Part shown: positions 14,767 to 37,476 of the stretch, piece after piece
Position numbering within the stretch: position 1 is the first letter of the stretch
How the letters are laid out: the number at the start of each line of letters is the position of its first letter
Origin: Bacteroidaceae bacterium
GTDB taxonomy: Bacteria; Bacteroidota; Bacteroidia; Bacteroidales; Bacteroidaceae
Length of the DNA stretch: 42,353 bases
NCBI GenBank assembly: GCA_017455585.1
Contig: JAFSZU010000200.1
Span: forward strand, 1-42,353
Direction of reading: 5' to 3'
Program-made: the position numbers and the translations under genes
Notes under the pieces: generated by a model
What the model saw: the letters and a program-made list of their open reading frames with translations, nothing else
Told to the model about the DNA's origin: nothing
The model's database searches: none

Positions 14767-16533
14767 ATGTTGCTCTCAGAACTCCTTCAAGTTATCAAGC
14801 CCGTCAAGGTGACGGGTTCCACGGACATCGACGTGCTGGATATTGCCATTGATTCGCGTCAGGTGCACCCTGGTCACCTCTTCATCGCCGTCCCTGGCAC
14901 ACAGGTGGACGGACACAAGTTCATTCCCAAAGCCATTGAACAAGGGGCTGTTGCCATTGTGTACTCTGAGTGTGATTTTAAGTGCATAGTGCATAGTGCA
15001 GAAGTGCAGAGTGATACAGAGTGCAGAGTGCAGAGTGCTGAAGTGCATAGTGATACCTTTGTAGATGGAGATCCAGAGTCACAACAATCACTATGCACTA
15101 TGCACTCCAGCACTATGCACTTAAAAGACTCTATGCACTTAAAAGGCCTTATGAACACTCCCACTTTTATACAAGTGGAAGACTCTGCCGCCGTTGTGGG
15201 ACCATTGGCCCACCATTTCTTTGGAGCACCCACGGAGAAAGTGGATCTTATCGGTGTCACTGGCACCAACGGCAAGACCACCATTGCCACCCTGCTGTTC
15301 AAGATGTTCCGCCAGTTTGGCTACAGCTGCGGACTTCTCTCCACCGTCTGCAACTATATTGACGATGAGGCCATCCCCACCGACCACACCACACCCGACC
15401 CCATTACATTAAACCGATTGCTCGGGCGCATGGCCGACAAGGGATGCCGCTATGCCTTCATGGAGGTGAGTTCCCACAGTGTGGTGCAACATCGTATCGC
15501 CGGACTCACCTTCAGGGGCGGCATCTTCACCAACCTCACCCGTGACCACCTGGACTACCACAAGACCTTCGAGGCCTACCGCGACGCCAAGAAGGGATTC
15601 TTCGACATGCTGCCCAAGGGAGCCTTTGCCGTGGTCAACGCCGATGACAAGAACGGCCTCTTCATGACACAGAATACCCGTGCCACCGTGCACACCTACA
15701 GCCTTCGCAGCATGGCCGACTACCGTGCCCGCATCCTCGAAGAAGGCTTCGACGGCATGACGCTCTCTGTGGATGGCCGCGAGGTATGCGTCCAGTTCAT
15801 TGGCCGCTTCAACGTGCAGAACCTGTTGGCTGTCTATGGTGCCGCCGTCTGCATGGGCAAACAGCCAGAGGACGTGCTGGTCTGCCTGAGCACCCTGCGT
15901 CCTGTCAACGGCCGCTTCGAAGCCATCCGCTCCCGCGAGGGCGTGACAGCCATCGTGGATTATGCGCATACGCCCGATGCATTAGATAATGTACTGGCCA
16001 CCATCAACGAGATTATTGGAAAGTGCGGAGTGCAGAGTGAAACTAAGTGCATAGTGCATAGTGCAGAAGTGCATAGTGATACCTTTGTAGATGGAGATCC
16101 AGAGTCACAGCAATCACTATGCACTATGCACTCCGGAACTATGCACTCAAAAGACACTATGCATTTAAAATCCCAGATTATCACCGTCTGCGGTGCCGGC
16201 GGCAATCGTGACAAGGGCAAGCGCCCGCTGATGGCACAGAGTGCCGTGCGTGCCAGCGATCGCGTCATCATCACCTCGGACAACCCCCGCTTCGAGGAGC
16301 CGCAGGACATCATCAACGACATGCTGGCTGGCATCACATCGCCCGAGGACAAGCGCAAGGTCCTCAGCATCGTCGATCGTCGCGAGGCCATCCGCACCGC
16401 CTGTGCCCTGGCACAGCCTGGCGATGTCATCCTCATCGCCGGCAAAGGGCATGAGGACTACCAAGATGTGAAAGGAGTCAAGCACCACTTCGACGACCAT
16501 GAGGTGGTCCGCGAAGCTTTTTTTAGTGCATAG
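14767..16533 (+). CDS. murE: UDP-MurNAc-tripeptide ligase MurE carrying two in-frame repeat insertions
   Basis: MurE adds the third residue, meso-diaminopimelate, to UDP-MurNAc-L-Ala-D-Glu in the cytoplasm. The ATP loop GTNGKTT is at 166-172. SDNPRFEEP contains the DNPR signature of DAP-specific enzymes, which fits the ddh gene at 35495. At 588 residues it is about 100 longer than usual. The excess is two insertions, about residues 70-127 (end of the N-terminal domain) and 419-469 (in the C-terminal domain before [14 protein letters not shown]). Both are encoded by the GTGCATAGTGC repeat and share [20 protein letters not shown]. Flanking motifs are intact, so the enzyme is probably functional. 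Its TAG stop lies within the next repeat arm. Confidence 0.93.
14974..15153 (+). repeat. GTGCATAGTGC element copy 1, in frame inside murE
   Basis: The left part has direct units such as AGTGCATAGTGC, ending in GTGATACC. A short core starting TTTGTAGATGG follows, then a right part of reverse-complement units (CACTATGCAC, TATGCACTTAAAA). Left and right arms could pair in the mRNA. Positions 15040-15144 match 16066-16170 with about six differences in 105 bases by eye. Confidence 0.9.
16021..16174 (+). repeat. GTGCATAGTGC element copy 2, in frame inside murE
   Basis: Same architecture and same reading frame as copy 1: left units, GTGATACC boundary, the TTTGTAGATGG core and right reverse-complement units. 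The 105-base core at 16066-16170 is nearly identical to copy 1, indicating recent duplication or maintained homology. Confidence 0.9.
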
Positions 16534-16578
16534 TGCCAAAATGCATAGTGCATAGTAATACCTATAAAAATAAAAGTT

Positions 16579-16941
16579 ATGAGATACGAAGAGTCTGGCC
16601 CCATCAAAGAAAAGGCAATGTCCTTTAGTATTCGTATATATAAACTTGCTAAATATCTACAAGAGAAGAATGAGTTTGTTTTAAGTCAACAAGTATTAAA
16701 GGCTGGGACGTCGATAGGTGCCAATGCTGCCGAATCAAGAAGAGCGGAATCTCTGGCCGACTTCACTCACAAGTTGGAGATCGCCTCCAAAGAATGTGAA
16801 GAGATTCGTTATTGGTTAGAACTACTTTGGAAAGTAGAACTTATTCAAGAAAATCTATATAACTCATTAGAAGACCAAGCCGCAGAGTTGCATCGGCTTC
16901 TCAAGGCAAGTATCAATACCGCAAAGAATAACCGCAAATAG
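16579..16941 (+). CDS. Four helix bundle protein (S23/TIGR02436-like)
   Basis: A 120-residue, mostly helical cytosolic protein. SFSIRIYKLAKYLQEKN, LSQQVLKAGTSIGANAAESR and LADFTHKLEIASKECEEIRY match the four-helix-bundle family known from 23S rRNA intervening sequences. Avd, the accessory protein of diversity-generating retroelements, has a similar fold and binds nucleic acid. No catalytic motif is present; family members are basic and form ring-like pentamers. The gene is visibly more AT-rich than murE and mraY and is not part of the standard dcw cluster, suggesting acquisition. It starts 45 bases after murE and has repeat arms on both sides. Confidence 0.88.
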   Translation: MRYEESGPIKEKAMSFSIRIYKLAKYLQEKNEFVLSQQVLKAGTSIGANAAESRRAESLADFTHKLEIASKECEEIRYWLELLWKVELIQENLYNSLEDQAAELHRLLKASINTAKNNRK

Positions 16942-16942
16942 C

Positions 16943-17106
16943 TTATGCATTCACTATGCACTATGCACTTTATCACTATGCACTTTATCACTATGCACTT
17001 TATCACTATGCACTTTATCACTATGCACTTTATCACTATGCACTTTATCACTATGCACTTTAGCACTATGCACTTTAGCACTATGCACTTTAGCACTATG
17101 CACTAA
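16943..17106 (+). repeat. Tandem 15-base array ending just before mraY
   Basis: After a CACTATGCACTATGCAC lead-in, a 15-base unit (TCACTATGCACTTTA, later GCACTATGCACTTTA) repeats about nine times from 16973 to 17104. The period is five codons, so all frames stay open; the minus strand reads KCIVI over and over. The mraY ATG follows at 17111. Confidence 0.95.
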
Positions 17107-17110
17107 TACT

Positions 17111-18376
17111 ATGCTCTATTATCTCTTCCGCTATCTTAGCCAATACGGCATCCCCGGCTCACACATGTGGAGCTATATCTCCTTCCGCGCCATCCTGACG
17201 CTGGTGCTCTCTCTGATTATCTCAGCCTGGTTCGGCGAATGGTTCATCAAGTGGATGAAGGCCCGCAAACTGAGCGAGGAGCAGCGTGATCCCTCCATTG
17301 ACCCCTACGGTGTCAATAAGATTGGAGTCCCCACCATGGGTGGTATCATTATTATCATTGCCACCGTGATACCGGCTTTGCTCTTCGGGCGACTCCGTAA
17401 CATCTACATGCTGATTATGCTCGGCACCACATTGTGGCTGGGTCTGCTCGGCTTCATTGACGACTACACGAAGATGAAAAAAGGCAAGGACGGCATCCGT
17501 CCGCTCTATAAGCTGGTGGGCCAGGCCCTGCTCGGATTAGTCGTGGGATTGGTGCTGTGGCTGAGTCCCGATGCCGTTGTGCATGAGAATATCACCACCG
17601 AACGCCAGAATGGTGTGGAAGTGGTGGTGCATAGGAGTGAACCCGTGAAGAGCACCGTCACAACCATTCCCTTTGTGAAGAACAACAACCTCAGCTACTC
17701 AGACATCTTCCGCTTCTTGGGCAGCCGCCGCACTGCTGCCGGGTGGATACTCTTTGTCCTCATCACCACCTTTGTGGTCATGGCTGTCAGCAACGGTTCC
17801 AACCTCAACGACGGCATGGACGGCATGTGTGCCGGCAACTCGGCCATCATGTGTGGTGCCTTGGCCATTCTTGCCTACGTCTCGTCACACATCAATCTGG
17901 CCGCCTACCTTAATATTATGTTTGTGCCAGGTTCCGAGGAACTGGTGGTGTTCCTCATGGCTTTCGTGGGTGCACTCATCGGTTTCCTCTGGTATAATGC
18001 TTATCCTGCACAGGTCTTCATGGGCGACACCGGCTCGCTGGCCATCGGTGGCATCATCGCCGTGACAGCCATCATCATCCACAAGGAACTGCTGTTGCCG
18101 CTCATCTGTTTCGTCTTTCTGGCTGAAAGCGTCAGTGTGCTGGCACAAACCAACTACGCCAAATATGGCAACAAGCGAGGCCTGAAGCTGCGTGTCTTCA
18201 AGCGCGCCCCGCTGCACGATACCTTCCGTGTGGCTCCCGGACAACTGCCCAAGGATTTCAAGGTGCTCATCAACTGGCCAAAGGGTTGCTGGCTCGAGTC
18301 CAAGATTACCACCCGTTTCTGGATTATCACCGTTATGATGTGCGCACTTGCCATCGTTACATTAAAGATAAGGTGA
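17111..18376 (+). CDS. mraY: Phospho-N-acetylmuramoyl-pentapeptide-transferase MraY
   Basis: MraY transfers phospho-MurNAc-pentapeptide from UDP to undecaprenyl phosphate, making lipid I at the inner membrane. The 421 residues have about ten transmembrane segments and the conserved IDDYTK, NLNDGMDGM and AYPAQVFMGDTGSLA blocks, with the metal-binding Asp residues in place. The length is usual for Bacteroidetes. A long periplasmic or cytoplasmic loop (about 155-195) is also typical of the group. The ATG at 17111 directly follows the 15-base array, so translation initiation happens next to repeat RNA. Confidence 0.95.
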   Translation: MLYYLFRYLSQYGIPGSHMWSYISFRAILTLVLSLIISAWFGEWFIKWMKARKLSEEQRDPSIDPYGVNKIGVPTMGGIIIIIATVIPALLFGRLRNIYMLIMLGTTLWLGLLGFIDDYTKMKKGKDGIRPLYKLVGQALLGLVVGLVLWLSPDAVVHENITTERQNGVEVVVHRSEPVKSTVTTIPFVKNNNLSYSDIFRFLGSRRTAAGWILFVLITTFVVMAVSNGSNLNDGMDGMCAGNSAIMCGALAILAYVSSHINLAAYLNIMFVPGSEELVVFLMAFVGALIGFLWYNAYPAQVFMGDTGSLAIGGIIAVTAIIIHKELLLPLICFVFLAESVSVLAQTNYAKYGNKRGLKLRVFKRAPLHDTFRVAPGQLPKDFKVLINWPKGCWLESKITTRFWIITVMMCALAIVTLKIR

Positions 18377-18381
18377 CAGAG

Positions 18382-18597
18382 AAGTGCATAGTGCAAAAGT
18401 GCAGAAGTGCATAGTGCAAAAGTGCATAGTGCAGAAGTGCATAGTGATACTATTAGAGTGATACTATTAGGAATAATACGTAAAATATGAGATTTATGAA
18501 TCAACAAAAGAATAACCCCCAAATAACAGAAGTGCCACTATGCACTATGCACTCTAGCACTATGCACTTAAAAGACACTATGCACTTAAAAGACACT
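18382..18597 (+). repeat. GTGCATAGTGC element copy spanning the murD start
   Basis: Left arm 18382-18449: AGTGCATAGTGCAAA-type units ending GTGATACT. Right arm 18535-18597: CACTATGCACTATGCAC and two TATGCACTTAAAAGACAC units. The murD ATG at 18487 lies in the loop and the right arm is translated as the murD N-terminus. Confidence 0.85.
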
Positions 18598-19926
18598 AAG
18601 CGTATTGTGATCCTGGGTGCTGCCGAGAGCGGCGTGGGTGCTGCGGCACTGGCCAAGAAAGAAGGCTTTGATGTCTTTGTGACCGATATGGGCAAGATCA
18701 AGCCCCACTATAAGGAGATGCTGGATGCCCGCGGCATTAAGTGGGAAGAGGGACAGCATACAGAGGAGCTTATCCTTAACGCCGACGAGATCATCAAGAG
18801 TCCTGGCATCCCCGATGCAGCACCCATGGTGCAGAAGGTGAAAGCCGTCGGCATACCCATCATCAGCGAGATAGAGTTTGCCGGACGCTACACCCACTCC
18901 AAGATGATCTGCATCACCGGCTCCAACGGCAAGACCACCACCACCAGCCTCATCTACCACATCTTCAAGAAGGCTGGCTATGACGTGGGGCTGGCCGGCA
19001 ACATCGGGGCTTCGCTGGCCCTGCAAGTGGCAGAGGAACCGCACGAATACTACGTGATCGAGCTCTCCAGCTTCCAGCTGGACAACATGTATGACTTCCG
19101 TGCCAACATCGCCGTGCTGCTGAACATCACGCCCGACCATCTGGATCGCTATCACAATTCGATGCAGGAATACACCGATGCCAAGATGCGAATCCTCCAG
19201 AACCAGACGAGCGACGATGCCTTTGTCTTCTGGAATGATGACCCCGTCATCCGCCGCGAACTGGAGAAATACCACATCGAGAGCCGCATGTGCCCCTTTA
19301 GCATAATCAAGAAGGAGGGCATGATTGGCTATATCGCCGACGGGGAGTACCATATCGAGCGGCCCACGCCGTTCAACATGGAGCAGGAATCGCTGTCGCT
19401 CTCTGGCATCCATAACATGTATAACTCGTTGGCCGCTGGCATCACGGCCGACCTCAGCGGCATCTCCAACGAGGTCATCCGCGAGAGCCTGAGCGATTTC
19501 CAAGGCGTGGAACACCGGCTGGAATATGTCTGTCAGGTGCACGGCGTGACCTTCATCAACGACTCCAAGGCCACTAATGTCGATGCCTGCTGGTATGCCT
19601 TGGAGAGCATGAAGCAACCTACCATCCTCATCCTGGGTGGCCTGGACAAGGGCAACGATTACAATGCCATCAAGGAACTGGTGCAGAAGAAGTGCAAGGG
19701 CCTTGTCTTCCTGGGAGTGGATAACCGCAAACTCCACGATTTCTTTGACCCCATGGGCATCCCCACGGTCGAGACACACTCCATGCAGGACTGCGTCAAC
19801 GTCTGCTACCAGATGGCCCAGCCCGGTGACACCGTCCTGCTCTCGCCCTGCTGTGCCAGCTTCGACCTCTTCAAGAACATGGAGGATCGCGGCGAACAGT
19901 TCAAGTCTCTCGCCCGTGCCCTATGA
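18487..19926 (+). CDS. murD: UDP-MurNAc-L-alanine:D-glutamate ligase MurD with repeat-derived N-terminus
   Basis: MurD adds D-glutamate to UDP-MurNAc-L-alanine in the cytoplasm. The body begins at residue 38 (KRIVILGAAESGVG). The ATP loop is ITGSNGKTTTT, followed by AGNIGASLA, the ELSSFQLD block and LSPCCASFDLF near the end, all characteristic. Residues about 15-37 ([20 protein letters not shown] and so on) are encoded by the right arm of the GTGCATAGTGC repeat and are absent from usual MurD. In-frame ATG codons inside the repeat (codons 21, 26 and 32) could also serve as starts, so the true N-terminus may be shorter than the ATG at 18487 implies. Confidence 0.93.
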   Translation: MRFMNQQKNNPQITEVPLCTMHSSTMHLKDTMHLKDTKRIVILGAAESGVGAAALAKKEGFDVFVTDMGKIKPHYKEMLDARGIKWEEGQHTEELILNADEIIKSPGIPDAAPMVQKVKAVGIPIISEIEFAGRYTHSKMICITGSNGKTTTTSLIYHIFKKAGYDVGLAGNIGASLALQVAEEPHEYYVIELSSFQLDNMYDFRANIAVLLNITPDHLDRYHNSMQEYTDAKMRILQNQTSDDAFVFWNDDPVIRRELEKYHIESRMCPFSIIKKEGMIGYIADGEYHIERPTPFNMEQESLSLSGIHNMYNSLAAGITADLSGISNEVIRESLSDFQGVEHRLEYVCQVHGVTFINDSKATNVDACWYALESMKQPTILILGGLDKGNDYNAIKELVQKKCKGLVFLGVDNRKLHDFFDPMGIPTVETHSMQDCVNVCYQMAQPGDTVLLSPCCASFDLFKNMEDRGEQFKSLARAL

Positions 19927-19970: not shown

Positions 19971-21170
19971 ATGTCCATCCCGCAATTGCCCAATAAAAAC
20001 GTTTCCGTAGGTAACCTCTTCGAGGGCGACAAGGTTATCTGGATGATCCTTTTCTTCCTGTGTATCATCTCCATCCTCGAAGTGTATAGTGCTTCCAGCA
20101 CCATGACCTTCGGCAAGAGTGCCTACTGGCAACCCGTGCTGATGCACAGCCTCTATCTGGCAGTGGGCGTGGGCGTGGCATGGGTGGTACATCGCATCCC
20201 GTGCCGCTACTTCGGCTGGATTGTGGTGGCTGGCCCCGTGCTGAGTATGTTGTTGCTTACCCTGGTGTTGTTCAGTGGTGGCATCAATGGTGCTTCCCGT
20301 TGGATGAACTTCATGGGTATCTCCTTTCAGCCCTCCGAGATAGCCAAGGGTTCACTCGTGGTGGTTGTGGCATGGCTGTTGAGTGTGATGCGCGACGAGC
20401 ATGGTGCCACCACTGCTGCTTTCAAATGGATATTGGGCTTCACTGCTGTCATCTGCGGACTCATCGTCTCAGAGAACCTCAGCACCGCCATACTCACCTT
20501 TTTTGTCGTGTTACTGATGATGTTCATCGGACAAGTGCCTTGGAAACTGCTCAGTGCGCTGGTAGGGGCCATAGTCATTGGTGGCGGTATCGGGTTCGCT
20601 GTGCTGGTTCTCACTCCTGAATCCACGTTGCAACAGATGCAAAGTGTTCCCGTACTCAAACGTCTGCCCACATGGGCACATCGTGTCCGCGACCACTCCG
20701 AACTACCGTCCGATCCGCTGCAATATGACCTGAACACCAACCCGCAGATTACACAGTCACGCATCGCCATCGCCACTTGCAACGTCATCGGCCGAGGGCC
20801 GGGCAACAGCACCGTGCGCGACTTCCTGCCCCAAGCCTATTCGGATTTCATCTACGCCATCATCATTGAGGAACTGGGTCTCTTTGGTGGCATATTCCTC
20901 ATGTTGCTATACATCACGCTCTTGTATAGAGCGGCACGCATCGCCGGGCGGTGCGAGAAGAACTTCCCCGCCTTCCTCATCATGGGGCTCTCACTGCTCA
21001 TTGTCATCCAGGCACTCATCAACATGTCTGTGGCCGTAGGCATCTTTCCTGTGACTGGCCAGCCGCTGCCCCTCGTCAGCCGAGGCGGTTCCTCCATCAT
21101 GGTCAACTGCGCCTACATCGGCATCATGCTTTCCATCAGCCGGTCAGCACGGGTGAAAGTTGAGAGTTGA
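19971..21170 (+). CDS. ftsW: Septal peptidoglycan glycosyltransferase FtsW
   Basis: FtsW is the SEDS-family enzyme that polymerises lipid II at the septum together with FtsI. The 399-residue protein has about ten membrane segments. SEDS signatures are present: FQPSEIAKGSLV, RDFLPQAYSDFIYAIIIEEL and GQPLPLVSRGGSS. The C-terminal RVKVES and the TGA stop are encoded by the AAAGTTGA repeat at 21154-21186, so the repeat has set the end of the protein. Confidence 0.95.
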   Translation: MSIPQLPNKNVSVGNLFEGDKVIWMILFFLCIISILEVYSASSTMTFGKSAYWQPVLMHSLYLAVGVGVAWVVHRIPCRYFGWIVVAGPVLSMLLLTLVLFSGGINGASRWMNFMGISFQPSEIAKGSLVVVVAWLLSVMRDEHGATTAAFKWILGFTAVICGLIVSENLSTAILTFFVVLLMMFIGQVPWKLLSALVGAIVIGGGIGFAVLVLTPESTLQQMQSVPVLKRLPTWAHRVRDHSELPSDPLQYDLNTNPQITQSRIAIATCNVIGRGPGNSTVRDFLPQAYSDFIYAIIIEELGLFGGIFLMLLYITLLYRAARIAGRCEKNFPAFLIMGLSLLIVIQALINMSVAVGIFPVTGQPLPLVSRGGSSIMVNCAYIGIMLSISRSARVKVES

Positions 21171-21271
21171 AAGTTGAAAGTTGAATGGGTTGGGTGTAGC
21201 GCGTATTCGCGCACAGATAACAGCCTGTCCCATCTATAGTCAAATCGTAAATCGTCAAATCGTCAAATAAA
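21154..21271 (+). repeat. Three repeat families in the ftsW-murG gap
   Basis: AAAGTTGAGAGTTG-type heptads (21154-21186, reverse of the CAACTTT family) cover the ftsW stop. GGTTGGGTGTAGCGCG with a GCGCG/CGCGC hairpin follows at 21187-21213; its relative is at 24617-24642. ATCGTAAATCGTCAAAT units at 21240-21271 run to the murG ATG. Confidence 0.8.
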
Positions 21272-22390
21272 ATGACCACTCCCCTCAGAATCATCATCAG
21301 CGGCGGCGGCACCGGCGGTCACATCTTCCCCGCCTTGTCCATTGCCAATGCCCTAAAGGCCCTGAAGCCCGATACAGAGATACTGTTTGTCGGTGCAGAA
21401 GGACGCATGGAGATGCAGCGTGTGCCCGCTGCAGGCTATGAAATAAAAGGTCTGCCTGTGGCCGGCTTTGACCGCCAGCACTTGCTCAAGAACATCGGTG
21501 TGCTGTGGAAGTTGATGAAGAGCCGCCGCATGGCACGCCGCATCATCAAGGAGTTTGCCCCCCATGCAGCCGTGGGAGTGGGTGGCTATGCCAGCGGCCC
21601 CACGCTGAACATGGCTGCAAAGATGGGCATCCCCTCGCTGATTCAGGAGCAGAACTCCTACGCCGGTGTCACCAACAAACTGCTGGCCAAGTCGGCTCGC
21701 AAGATCTGTGTGGCCTACGAGGGCATGGAGCGGTTCTTCCCCAAGGACAAGATTATCCTCACGGGCAATCCTGTCCGCCAGCAACTGACAGAATGCAAAC
21801 TCACCCGCGCAGAGGCTATCGAGAAGCTGGGTTTCGACCCTGTGCGCTCTGTCATCCTCATCATTGGCGGCAGCCTGGGCGCACGCACTATCAACGAGAG
21901 CGTGCTGCAGGCACTCCCGCTCATCGCCGAGAGCCGTGTGCAGATCATCTGGCAGACAGGCGGCTACTACTTCGAGGACATCAAGCGGCAACTCTCCGAG
22001 AAAGGCTGTCCGGCAAACCTGAAGGTGACCGACTTCATCAATGCCATGGACGAGGCCTACCGCGCCGCCGACCTCGTCATCAGCCGTGCCGGCGCCAGCA
22101 GCATCTCTGAACTGTGTTTGCTGGGCAAACCCTCCATCCTTGTGCCGTCGCCCAACGTGGCCGAAGATCACCAAACACACAACGCCATGGCACTGGTCAA
22201 CAAAGAAGCTGCCCTCATGGTCAAGGATGTCGATGCGCGCGAGCAACTGCTTCCACTCGCCATCAAGACCGCTCTCACTCCCGCCACTCTCACCCAATTG
22301 GGGAACAATGCCAAGGCTATGGCACTGCCGGATTCGGCACGCATCATCGCAGAAGAAGTACTCAAATTAGTGGAATCACCTCAACAATGA
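21272..22390 (+). CDS. murG: UDP-GlcNAc:lipid I N-acetylglucosaminyltransferase MurG
   Basis: MurG adds GlcNAc to lipid I, forming lipid II, on the cytoplasmic face of the inner membrane. The 372 residues contain the N-terminal GGGTGGH loop (11-17), GVGGYASGP, the IQEQNSYAG segment, ILIIGGSLGA for the second Rossmann domain and the UDP-GlcNAc-binding SRAGASSISEL with the PSPNVAEDHQ block. The TGA overlaps the murC ATG (ATGA), implying coupled translation; this is one of two dcw junctions free of repeats. Confidence 0.95.
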   Translation: MTTPLRIIISGGGTGGHIFPALSIANALKALKPDTEILFVGAEGRMEMQRVPAAGYEIKGLPVAGFDRQHLLKNIGVLWKLMKSRRMARRIIKEFAPHAAVGVGGYASGPTLNMAAKMGIPSLIQEQNSYAGVTNKLLAKSARKICVAYEGMERFFPKDKIILTGNPVRQQLTECKLTRAEAIEKLGFDPVRSVILIIGGSLGARTINESVLQALPLIAESRVQIIWQTGGYYFEDIKRQLSEKGCPANLKVTDFINAMDEAYRAADLVISRAGASSISELCLLGKPSILVPSPNVAEDHQTHNAMALVNKEAALMVKDVDAREQLLPLAIKTALTPATLTQLGNNAKAMALPDSARIIAEEVLKLVESPQQ

Positions 22391-23766: not shown

Positions 23767-23826
23767 CACGTACAATCAATAATCGTCAAATTGTAAATCG
23801 TCAAATTGTAAATCGTTAAATCGTAA
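23748..23826 (+). repeat. TTAACACG and ATCGTCAAATTGTAA repeats between murC and ftsQ
   Basis: 23748-23771: TTAACACG/TTAACACA units of 8 bases, overlapping the murC stop. 23780-23826: AAATCGT and CAAATTGT units alternating (about 15 bases per pair) up to the ftsQ ATG. Confidence 0.8.
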
Positions 23827-24570
23827 ATGTACAAGACCATCCTCAAAGTCGCCGTCTTCCTCGGCTTAGTAGCTTACCTCATCTTCGCGCTTGTACGCTT
23901 AAACCGCAACGAGCAGGGACAGGAATGCACGGGCCTGGAAATCACCATTGATGACACACGACAGACGGGTTTCTTGGGTGAGAACGAGGTAAGGGAACTG
24001 TTGATAGCGAGCAAACACTATCCCGAGAACGAACTACTGGAGTCCGTGGACTTGGCAGAGCTGGAATCCGTGTTAGTCGCCAGTCCCTACATCAATGAAG
24101 CCTTATGTTTCAAGACCGTAGAAGGTAAAGTGGCTATGCATATCACCCCGCGCATTCCCGTCCTGCACGTCCTGAATGATAACGGTGAGGATTTCTATAT
24201 CGACAACTGCGGAAGCGTCATGCCACGTGGTCACCACACCATAGACTTGCCTGTCATGACGGGACATGTGGACCGAGCCACTGCCGGGTCGCTCTACTCA
24301 CCCATAGGCGTACTACTCAACAAAGACGAGTTTTGGAACCAGCAAACACAGGAGATTCACGTTACCCCCAAAGGTGAATTGGAACTGACACCCCGTGTCG
24401 GCGACCACACCATCCTGCTGGGAGATACTTCTGGCTTGACCGACAAACTACAGCGCATGCGTACCTTCTACACTGAGGGACTGGACCGTGCAGGGTGGAA
24501 TCGTTATAAAGCTATAGACCTGCGCTTCAAGGATCAGGTCATTGGCATCAAGAAAGATAAGAAGAAGTGA
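23827..24570 (+). CDS. ftsQ: Cell division protein FtsQ/DivIB
   Basis: A 247-residue bitopic protein: short cytoplasmic start, one transmembrane segment (about 6-24, ILKVAVFLGLVAYLIFALV) and a periplasmic region with a POTRA-like part (ITIDDTRQTGFLGENEVREL, then LESVLVASPYINEAL) and the FtsQ domain (PRIPVLHVLNDNGEDFYID). It scaffolds the divisome by binding FtsL- and FtsB-type proteins. The lysine-rich end (KKDKKK) is unremarkable. It sits in the standard place between murC and ftsA. Confidence 0.9.
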   Translation: MYKTILKVAVFLGLVAYLIFALVRLNRNEQGQECTGLEITIDDTRQTGFLGENEVRELLIASKHYPENELLESVDLAELESVLVASPYINEALCFKTVEGKVAMHITPRIPVLHVLNDNGEDFYIDNCGSVMPRGHHTIDLPVMTGHVDRATAGSLYSPIGVLLNKDEFWNQQTQEIHVTPKGELELTPRVGDHTILLGDTSGLTDKLQRMRTFYTEGLDRAGWNRYKAIDLRFKDQVIGIKKDKKK

Positions 24571-26083: not shown

Positions 26084-26153
26084 TGTTAACACGTTAACAT
26101 ATTAACACGTTAACACTTTCAACTTTCAATGTTCAACTTTCAACTTTCAACTC
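26084..26153 (+). repeat. TTAACACG and CAACTTT repeats between ftsA and ftsZ
   Basis: 26084-26116 has octads like GTTAACAC and ATTAACAC. 26115-26153 has CAACTTT heptads. Together they fill the 78-base gap. An in-frame ATG at 26129 inside the repeat could extend FtsZ by ten residues (MFNFQLSTQY) but is unlikely to be the true start. Confidence 0.85.
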
Positions 26154-31639: not shown

Positions 31640-31706
31640 CGCAGAAAGCGCAGATAACGCAGAAATAACTTTCAACTCTCAACTCTCAACTCTCATCTCT
31701 CAACTC
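31640..31706 (-). repeat. CGCAGAAAG and CAACTCT repeats between dut and the TPR gene
   Basis: 31640-31666 holds three 9-base units (CGCAGAAAG, CGCAGATAA, CGCAGAAAT). 31668-31706 holds CAACTCT heptads, which overlap the dut stop codon at 31700-31702. Confidence 0.75.
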
Positions 31707-36394: not shown

Positions 36395-36492
36395 TTCACA
36401 ATGCACAATTCATAATTCATAATGCATACCCCGCCCTGTTGTGGTGTGATAGCTTTTGACCACGTATGAATTATGAATTATGAATTATGAAT
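36393..36492 (+). repeat. AATTCATA/TATGAATT inverted repeat between ddh and ribF
   Basis: AATTCATAATTCATAATGCAT on the left (to 36428) faces GTATGAATTATGAATTATGA on the right (from 36463), both with 7-base periods. A GTGGT/ACCAC pair lies between them. The last ATGAAT unit is the ribF start codon. Confidence 0.8.
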
Positions 36493-37401
36493 ACTGTTGC
36501 TACCATCGGCTTCTTCGACGGCGTGCACCGCGGTCACCAGTGTCTCATCCGGCAAGTGCAGGACGAGGCACGGCGGCGTGGTGCACGCTCGTTGCTCATC
36601 ACCTTTGACCGCCATCCACGGGCTGTCTTTGCGCCAGACAGCGTGCCGCCCCTGCTCACCACCCCCGAAGAGAAGATGCAGCTGCTGCGCGCCACGGGCA
36701 TCGATGCCATCCACATCCTGCCCTTTGACCGCACGATGGCAGCCCTCACCGCCCGCGAGTTCATGCGGCAGGTGCTGCGAGACCAGCTGGGTGTCACCGC
36801 CCTCGTCATCGGCTATGACCATCATTTCGGGAAGCCTCAAGGAGAAAACTATGTGGATTACTGCGCTTTTGGTCAAGAATTGGGTATAGACGTTGTATTG
36901 GCACATGAATTAGAAGGGGAACATGTCAGCAGTTCCGAAATACGTCGCGCCTTGGAGACAGGTGATGTGTCCACTGCGGCCTATTTATTAGGTCGGCCAT
37001 ACTCCTGGAGCGGACAGGTCGTACAAGGACACGCTATCGGTCGTCAGCTCGGTTTCCCAACGGCAAATCTTCAGACCTCTACGCCCGACAAACTGCTGCC
37101 CGCCAATGGAGCTTATGCAGTGAGGGTTATCTCGTCCACAGGCAATTCATGGGGAGCGATGCTCAATATCGGTTGTCGCCCCACAATGGATAACGGTACA
37201 GATACTTCCATTGAGGTCCATCTGTTCGACTTCGAGGGTGACCTTTATGGCTTGAGCCTCACCTTATTATTTATTTCACGCCTACGTGCGGAACGATGTT
37301 TTTCCAGCGAGGAAGAACTGGTTCATCAGCTCCAACAGGATAAGTCTGTAGCCATGTCTGTTCTCGCGTCCGCACGTGATTCTCATAACGTCCGCATGTA
37401 A
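36487..37401 (+). CDS. ribF: Bifunctional riboflavin kinase/FMN adenylyltransferase
   Basis: RibF turns riboflavin into FMN and then FAD. The N-terminal adenylyltransferase has GFFDGVHRGH (8-17) and VSSSEIRRAL. The C-terminal kinase has GHAIGRQLGFPTANL and the late LLFISRLRAE. At 304 residues it is of normal length. The first codon is the last ATG of the TATGAATT repeat. The end (SVLASARDSHNVRM) and the stop are encoded by the first two units of the CGTCCGCACGT array, so both ends have been set by repeats. Confidence 0.92.
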   Translation: MNTVATIGFFDGVHRGHQCLIRQVQDEARRRGARSLLITFDRHPRAVFAPDSVPPLLTTPEEKMQLLRATGIDAIHILPFDRTMAALTAREFMRQVLRDQLGVTALVIGYDHHFGKPQGENYVDYCAFGQELGIDVVLAHELEGEHVSSSEIRRALETGDVSTAAYLLGRPYSWSGQVVQGHAIGRQLGFPTANLQTSTPDKLLPANGAYAVRVISSTGNSWGAMLNIGCRPTMDNGTDTSIEVHLFDFEGDLYGLSLTLLFISRLRAERCFSSEEELVHQLQQDKSVAMSVLASARDSHNVRM

Positions 37402-37476
37402 ACCCTTTCGCGTCCGCACGTAAACCCCTTCGCGTCCGCACGTAAATCATTTCACAACCGCACGTTTTTTGTTTAT
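37367..37476 (+). repeat. Five-unit 22-base CGTCCGCACGT array
   Basis: Units begin at 37367, 37389, 37411, 37433 and 37455, each starting CGTCCGCACG or a close variant. The array overlaps the ribF stop and runs to the CPBP start; the last unit ends in a T-run. The same 22-base family forms the 36-bp inverted repeat at 10733. Confidence 0.9.

Follow-up and report, generated by a model that had tools for sequence, protein, structure and literature searches.

Why does a gene of the S23 family, whose four-helix-bundle proteins are named for intervening sequences (IVS) of 23S rRNA, lie between murE and mraY in the division and cell wall (dcw) cluster of a Bacteroidaceae bacterium (assembly GCA_017455585.1, contig JAFSZU010000200.1), and what are the repeats that enclose it? 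In the window, by which we mean the whole 42,353-nt stretch analysed, the gene sits in a compact block at positions 16525-17106, every part of which is given on the forward strand. The left arm (16525-16556) is a run of AGTGCAT-type units followed by AATACC, and it contains the murE stop codon (16531-16533). The S23 gene (16579-16941) comes next, then the right arm (16944-17106), an array of ATGCACT-type units that is the reverse complement of the left arm; mraY (17111-18376) starts directly 3' of this array. We propose that the block is probably a selfish foldback element in gene-bearing form, and that gene-less hairpins found elsewhere in the same genome are its derivatives.

The pairing of the arms is close. 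Positions 16525-16556 and 16953-16984 are 91% complementary across 32 nt, and the right array continues to about position 17106 in 15-nt (7+8) periods, with a Tandem Repeats Finder score of 272. As a general measure, we aligned the 200 nt to the left of a gene with the reverse complement of the 200 nt to its right, set a threshold of 30 and compared each locus with 60 shuffles. At the window gene the inverted score is 50 against a shuffle maximum of 22, and the direct score is 13. A sequence-only reading of this DNA had described a TIGR02436/S23-like open reading frame (ORF) between inverted arms that was more AT-rich than its neighbours. Both descriptions hold: GC content is 0.399 in the S23 gene and 0.378 in the block, compared with 0.550 in murE and 0.539 in mraY.

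The 120-residue product of the ORF matches PF05635 with 95.9 bits (E 2e-27, cut-off 33.8) and TIGR02436 with 101.7 bits (cut-off 24). The model for Avd, the accessory protein of diversity-generating retroelements (DGRs), gives 24.1 bits, under its cut-off of 80. An AlphaFold2 model predicts a four-helix bundle with a predicted local distance difference test score of 94.7. The nearest Foldseek matches to this model are 2RLD and 2GSC, followed by Avd (4DWL) and a DGR ribonucleoprotein that includes the reverse transcriptase (8UB7), the latter two at E 0.06 and above with probability of about 1. Across 21 diverse family members, Q38 and E75 are invariant and R41, S45, N49 and E52 nearly so. Solved structures of S23 proteins have been released since 2006-2007; to our knowledge, the family has no established function.

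Are inverted arms a general companion of S23 genes? In the window's own genome (G000; a 2.82 Mb assembly of 201 contigs, 80% complete) five PF05635 genes were found, on contigs C11, C111, C136, C138 and C139. All five read as lying between inverted short arrays, each with a different unit, within runs of co-directional genes; four reach an arm score of at least 30, and the fifth, L003, scores 24. From 41 genomes we retained 89 of 104 PF05635 matches over the cut-off and left out 15 that were partial, low-scoring, carried stops or were unfetched (among them G025:C61, G040:C316 and G040:C355); fetched matches with internal stops were kept, and 88 genes had usable flanks, one having no right flank. 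Inverted arms score at least 30 at 71 of these 88 genes and exceed all 60 shuffles at 76, and the corresponding counts in direct orientation are 9 and 11. Among control genes from the same loci, 3 of 273 reach 30 (2 of 199 for genes up to 750 nt). At a lag of 7 nt the two sides of armed loci have identities of 0.357 and 0.365, versus 0.262 at 1.2 kb upstream, and the best lag in the 71 armed loci is 7 in 34 and 36 and 8 in 17 and 19 on the two sides, respectively. A search for a common inner-end motif by k-mer enrichment across all S23 loci yielded no single strong motif, and an Rfam scan of 40 S23 loci found no rRNA. Could ordinary simple-sequence repeats lie near these genes by coincidence? 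Arrays of 7 nt do also occur elsewhere in these genomes, but the contrast between 71/88 and 3/273, the locus-specific match of the two arms and their co-variation with the protein make this explanation hardly credible.

The association extends well beyond the relatives. The best 80 of 371 confirmed S23 loci retrieved with a Nostoc query come from cyanobacteria, proteobacteria, planctomycetes, chloroflexi, acidobacteria and others; after four were dropped for short flanks, 43 of the 76 usable loci have an inverted score of at least 30 (direct, 5) and 49 beat all 60 shuffles (direct, 7). The sequence-only reading had made its case depend on a genome-wide link between arms and genes of this family, which these counts bear out in related genomes and in other phyla alike. 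It had likewise named a close relative with the gene and no arms as a counterexample; G002, the sole same-genus genome with an S23 gene beside mraY, has arms. The presence or absence of the block at the murE-mraY junction, a comparison that it recommended, does vary, and empty junctions exist, for example in G024. For this survey the mraY start was found by pattern in 19 of 21 loci, those of G007 and G009 being the exceptions.

Of 29 matching plasmid records, three, all cyanobacterial, were examined, and their S23 loci are armed; one of them, L233, scores even higher in direct orientation. At L232 and L233 the heptad-armed S23 gene lies between cas6 and cas4 in type I-D loci of clustered regularly interspaced short palindromic repeats (CRISPR), an observation that may bear on a CRISPR survey in which the legend of a figure of CRISPR-associated genes spells out the name 23S rRNA IVP (PMC10910872). 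Carriage by phages was considered and rejected: one query, L035, itself armless, had 0 matches in 50,697 phage records.

Is the repeat unit specific to its gene? When the arms of one locus are scored against those of another, 30 is reached in 3.8% of cases across genomes (7364 pairs) and in 7.2% within a genome (292 pairs). Over 69 of the 71 armed loci (two with internal stops were excluded), arm similarity follows protein similarity (Mantel r 0.17, 0 of 500 permutations as high). Among cross-genome pairs, a cross-arm score of at least 30 is found in 0.6% at a protein score ratio below 0.2 (n=1186), in 53% at a ratio of 0.6-0.8 (n=32) and in 8 of 8 above 0.8. The S23 genes of G000 and G002 illustrate how units may change. 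They are mutual best hits in the set at 62.5% (next best 46.6% and 50.4%) and share both the junction and the inner-left AGTRATACCTAT. Their units differ, AGTGCAT in G000 and AGTGAGA in G002, and in each genome the two arms agree with each other; this single pair of loci thus suggests that both arms change together.

The unit of the window element is mostly confined to its home genome and is abundant there. AGTGCATAGTGCA occurs 63 times (36+27) in G000, where the reversed control gives 0, and 19 times in total across 4 of 40 relatives, the remaining 36 having none. The G000 copies form 20 clusters, among them the right arm of the S23 copy; both strands occur in 14 of the 20. Two paired-arm elements without a gene lie within murE itself (14767-16533, forward strand), in frame, at 14981-15153 (core 15042-15099) and 16029-16167 (core 16068-16125); the RNA fold of the second, taken over 16021-16170, has a z of -7.2. 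A third pair of AGTGCAT arms in the window, at the mraY/murD junction (18383-18598, forward strand), has a longer spacer unlike the core, and its right arm is in frame with and forms part of the murD N-terminus. Across G000, 15 short-spaced elements have arms 52-60 nt apart and one common core, whose inner ends resemble those of the window S23 copy and of the G002 element. A 94-nt core query matched the core in G000 only; in the 40 relatives it gave arm matches alone (G021, G008).

A strict core motif fits 14 elements, and 13 of these encode VHSDTF..ESQQSL or a close variant, each in the same frame within a long ORF. In the exception, L096, the core is not in the shared frame of a long ORF; the fifteenth short-spaced element, L097, misses the strict motif yet reads in the shared frame. 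The hosts are unrelated enzymes. Pfam names were obtained for nine of the ten host frames scanned, out of 12 outside the window (L094 and L097 were excluded): SNF2 helicase, MetH activation domain, RapZ/APH, HisI-HisE, sulfatase, RibD, Alr, SurE and LpxB. The tenth, L105, matched no Pfam family. Each G000 core leaves two or three frames open, so chance would not be expected to yield a single shared frame, and we infer selection for an open, harmless peptide where the element inserts in frame. Codon-position constraint within the core was considered separately: minor alleles number 8, 12 and 18 and variable columns 5, 5 and 6 at positions 1, 2 and 3, counts too few for a claim of selection. Neither murE insert was seen in the aligned MurE of 19 relatives; G012 and G023 are informative for the second insert only, since their MurE fragments begin at the first insertion site.

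Do other genomes show the same relation between an S23 gene and copies of its unit? The single S23 gene detected in G007 has GGTTATA arms, and GGTTATMGGTTATM occurs 153 times there and 0 times in four other genomes. With contig C111 excluded from the pairing count, 15 of 33 listed clusters (two of the 33 being the S23 arms) contain both strands. Among 16 gene-less elements tested in G007, the loops appear related and every reading frame is closed. In the alphaproteobacterium G041, AGCGAATAGCGAATAG occurs 31 times, 6 of these at the S23 locus; exact matching shows 2 of its 9 clusters to be paired, and a relaxed unit shows pairing at 6 of 7 gene-less sites (L341-L346, not L347). The same unit is present in 4 of 4 genomes chosen for it and in 0 of 6 others, and four Rhodopseudomonas sites (L351-L354) are paired. 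Of the 19 occurrences of the G022 unit in its own genome, 9 fall at the S23 locus, and four other genomes have 0. The G012 unit is found 37 times at home, with 8 copies at the S23 locus; one of four other genomes has a single copy. In a sample taken from the start of low-numbered contigs (at most 20 kb of each), with S23-matching contigs skipped in G013 and G016, the S23-less genomes G004, G020 and G039 have 0 period-7 arrays in 482 kb and four S23-bearing genomes have 18 in 432 kb. The scan used strict settings, under which the AGTGCAT pairs of the window went undetected.

Arrays that stand alone invite a regulatory explanation, in which S23 regulates by binding RNA or DNA, the arrays are its binding sites in a post-transcriptional network, and its own arms serve autoregulation, perhaps via RNase III. 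G005 and G012 have many solo arrays, and such arrays precede mraY in several relatives; at 63 of the 76 S23 loci that have close neighbours on each side, the two flanking genes are co-directional; and such a network has been proposed for the TAACTGA heptads of Beggiatoaceae (PMC4679880). We nonetheless consider this explanation unlikely, given that conserved-core copies lie in frame within unrelated enzymes and that units differ among close relatives.

If the arrays move, does something other than S23 move them? Inverted arrays could be spread by a repetitive extragenic palindromic (REP)-associated tyrosine transposase (RAYT, of the Y1 type), by a reverse transcriptase or by replication slippage, with S23 as a passenger or a factor for tolerating repeats. 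S23 has no catalytic residues that we know of, its fold resembles that of Avd, which works alongside a reverse transcriptase, many S23 genes are armless and many arrays are solo, all of which would fit such a role. The candidate partners were sought by profile. Among four genomes scanned with PF01797 (Y1_Tnp) at E <= 0.001, no RAYT gene was found in G000, 80% complete as it is, or in G005; G007 has one match under the cut-off and G021 two over it. A RAYT was rejected as the mover on the searches of G000 and G005. Among eight genomes scanned with PF00078, no reverse transcriptase was found in G007, G005, G016, G020 or G039; the matches are one weak one in G000, two in the S23-less G004 and two in G041. 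The weak G000 match lies on contig C137, and the S23 genes of that genome are on other contigs. A reverse transcriptase was rejected as partner with five of eight genomes, S23-bearing G007 among them, giving no match. With no Y1_Tnp in G000 and no reverse transcriptase in G007, neither partner is called for, as far as these incomplete genomes go. S23 is, moreover, the sole gene seen between arms at the fetched AGTGCAT sites of G000, and we regard a mere cargo role for it as quite unlikely.

How does the element compare with known systems? Published work on a 23S rRNA IVS describes an S23 gene within inverted repeats, with tandem heptamers just before the ORF and excision by RNase III, and cites earlier ideas that the IVS arose by transposition and that the ORF served mobility (PMC4990558, as far as its accessible text goes). 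The window element differs in lying in a protein operon rather than inside a 23S rRNA gene and in having unit-specific gene-less copies across the genome. It could nevertheless act at the RNA level, with the stem of its arms cut by RNase III in the operon mRNA, the S23 message released and spread occurring through RNA. The published IVS would offer a precedent, and the outer arms of the window element do pair in the predicted RNA fold; but gene-less copies are embedded in the coding regions for essential enzymes, whose mRNA would be destroyed by cleavage, and no reverse transcriptase was found in G007. We hold this route to be distinctly improbable.

The closest parallel to the foldback element that we propose may be that of RAYTs and their REPINs (REP doublets forming hairpins), described as hairpin-forming inverted pairs that are multi-copy in one genome, with a gene beside the same repeat (in the accessible text of PMC3116915). 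Multi-copy, short-spaced inverted pairs are found in G000. The differences are that an S23 gene takes the place of the Y1 tyrosine transposase, for which G000 yielded no partner gene, that the arms are tandem arrays of 7-8 nt and that insertion occurs within genes. The sequence-only reading had suggested an IVS- or REPtron-like element: the gene-less copies across G000 are expected of a REPtron-like one and support that part, and neither a 23S location nor, in this incomplete genome, a Y1_Tnp gene was found to support the remainder. By analogy, then, the logic would be REPtron-like and the parts different. In-frame palindromes in unrelated genes recall the Rickettsia palindromic elements (PMC10969869, from the text accessible to us); compared by insertion pattern only, the G000 elements match them, and they differ in that their arms are heptad arrays and a gene-bearing, S23-encoding relative was found. 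Compared with a miniature inverted-repeat transposable element (MITE) of a DNA transposon, the elements here end in tandem arrays. A resemblance between PF05635 and Avd has been noted in a retroelement paper (PMC10053308, in the portion seen), and the two are of the same fold class; the window protein nevertheless falls far under the Avd cut-off, the one weak reverse-transcriptase match of G000 is on no contig with an S23 gene, and none was found in G007.

Heptamer arrays themselves are familiar. The 7-nt tandem arrays of cyanobacteria, the short tandemly repeated repetitive (STRR) sequences, are one such class. In the accessible text of PMC4692102, heptamer repeats are described as long noted in bacteria without a source, among them GGGAATC in Xanthomonas, often in convergent inverted pairs, and GGGGATT in Nostoc, rarely paired; with the heptads of Beggiatoaceae, these share with the arms described here the form of 7-nt tandem arrays. 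Searching what was accessible of the two heptamer papers (PMC4679880, PMC4692102) for S23 and helix bundle found no mention, and PMC5524665, in the part seen, merely lists four helix bundle genes. Among the literature matches listed, which include few subscription papers and no bioRxiv preprints, no paper ties S23 genes to inverted short repeats outside rRNA.

We propose the following account. The element would consist of two inverted arrays of a 7-8-nt unit and S23 as its sole gene. In gene-less copies the arms would be joined by a short fixed core that replaces the gene, and these copies would spread as REPINs do with RAYTs and MITEs with transposons. The S23 protein, presumably an oligomer by homology to solved relatives, may recognise the hairpin of its own unit as DNA or RNA and may promote the copying and insertion of its own element using host enzymes. 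Insertion into a coding sequence would be tolerated if the copy keeps an open, in-frame peptide. What supports this account is the anatomy of the block, the tie of S23 genes to inverted arrays, the tie of unit to protein, the near restriction of the unit to its home genome, the gene-less copies and the insert-free relatives.

A number of observations weigh against it. Binding, excision and transposition were not observed, and we know of no catalytic site in S23. Arms are missing from 17 of the 88 related S23 genes by score and from 12 by the shuffle test; in other phyla the figures are 33 and 27 of 76. Solo arrays are frequent: none of 33 clusters of extra copies in G005 is paired by exact 14-mer, the extra copies listed for G012 and G022 look mostly solo, and the AGTTCAK unit, mainly in solo arrays, was counted against pairing. 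The S23-bearing 432 kb contain a single inverted pair, L401, and periods 8 and 9 are also commoner there than in the S23-less sample (10 versus 0 and 9 versus 1). Reversed controls gave 10 matches for the G012 pattern and one, in G007, for the AGTGCAT pattern. Part of the unit-protein tie may reflect shared descent of one insertion; orthologous loci, and loci within one genome, are not independent, and that the G000 and G002 elements are orthologous is argued from their shared site and reciprocal best match, not from a tree. Folded as RNA, the whole S23 locus is no better than shuffles (z -1.25). Most of the genomes are incomplete, so the absence of S23, Y1_Tnp or reverse transcriptase from one of them is no proof. 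In the accessible text of PMC4990558 the S23 protein of one IVS is judged probably not made in vivo, its ORF decaying, and PMC4692102, likewise as far as accessible, reports that no tie of the Xanthomonas and Nostoc heptamers to mobile elements was found.

The selfish foldback element may have wider relatives, and the 23S rRNA IVS may be the same kind of element at another location. More speculatively, and with somewhat less than even confidence, we suggest that the S23 family supplies the proteins of a class of bacterial foldback elements that have no transposase. In this class each S23 lineage would have its own 7-8-nt unit, rewritten in both arms together, and would seed its genome with gene-less hairpins, solo arrays and in-frame peptides in essential enzymes; the orphan heptamers of cyanobacteria, xanthomonads and Bacteroidales and the 23S IVS would be its footprints. 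Counts in several phyla now tie S23 genes to heptamer repeats, and the tie of unit to protein is testable. If the account is true, there exists a class of mobile element with no recognised transposase, 23S intervening sequences are one of its landing places, and essential enzymes such as MurE and LpxB have recently received in-frame peptides.

Finally, we note further repeats in the window and at one other locus. An inverted ATTCATA/TATGAAT pair with a 35-nt gap and no gene lies at 36407-36494 (no strand assigned) and resembles the arms of the G000 S23 locus L003. Arrays of CAACTTTCAACT type occur at 1723-1762, 21154-21185, 26115-26152 and 31667-31706; their unit fits no S23 locus among the five found in the incomplete G000 but resembles the arms of an S23 locus in G014, L132. 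A 22-nt tandem repeat (CGTCCGCACGTAAACC..) at 37364-37465 is unlike the heptad arrays. The right arm at L001 (1861-2028 of that locus) is a 47-nt tandem array of 3.6 copies with 98% matches, in which heptads are joined to a GC-richer stretch. Lastly, AATCGTCAAAT-type arrays at 21239-21268 and 23781-23828 of the window lie ahead of ORFs at 21272, which we take to be MurG, and 23827, and they resemble the arms of the G000 S23 locus L005.

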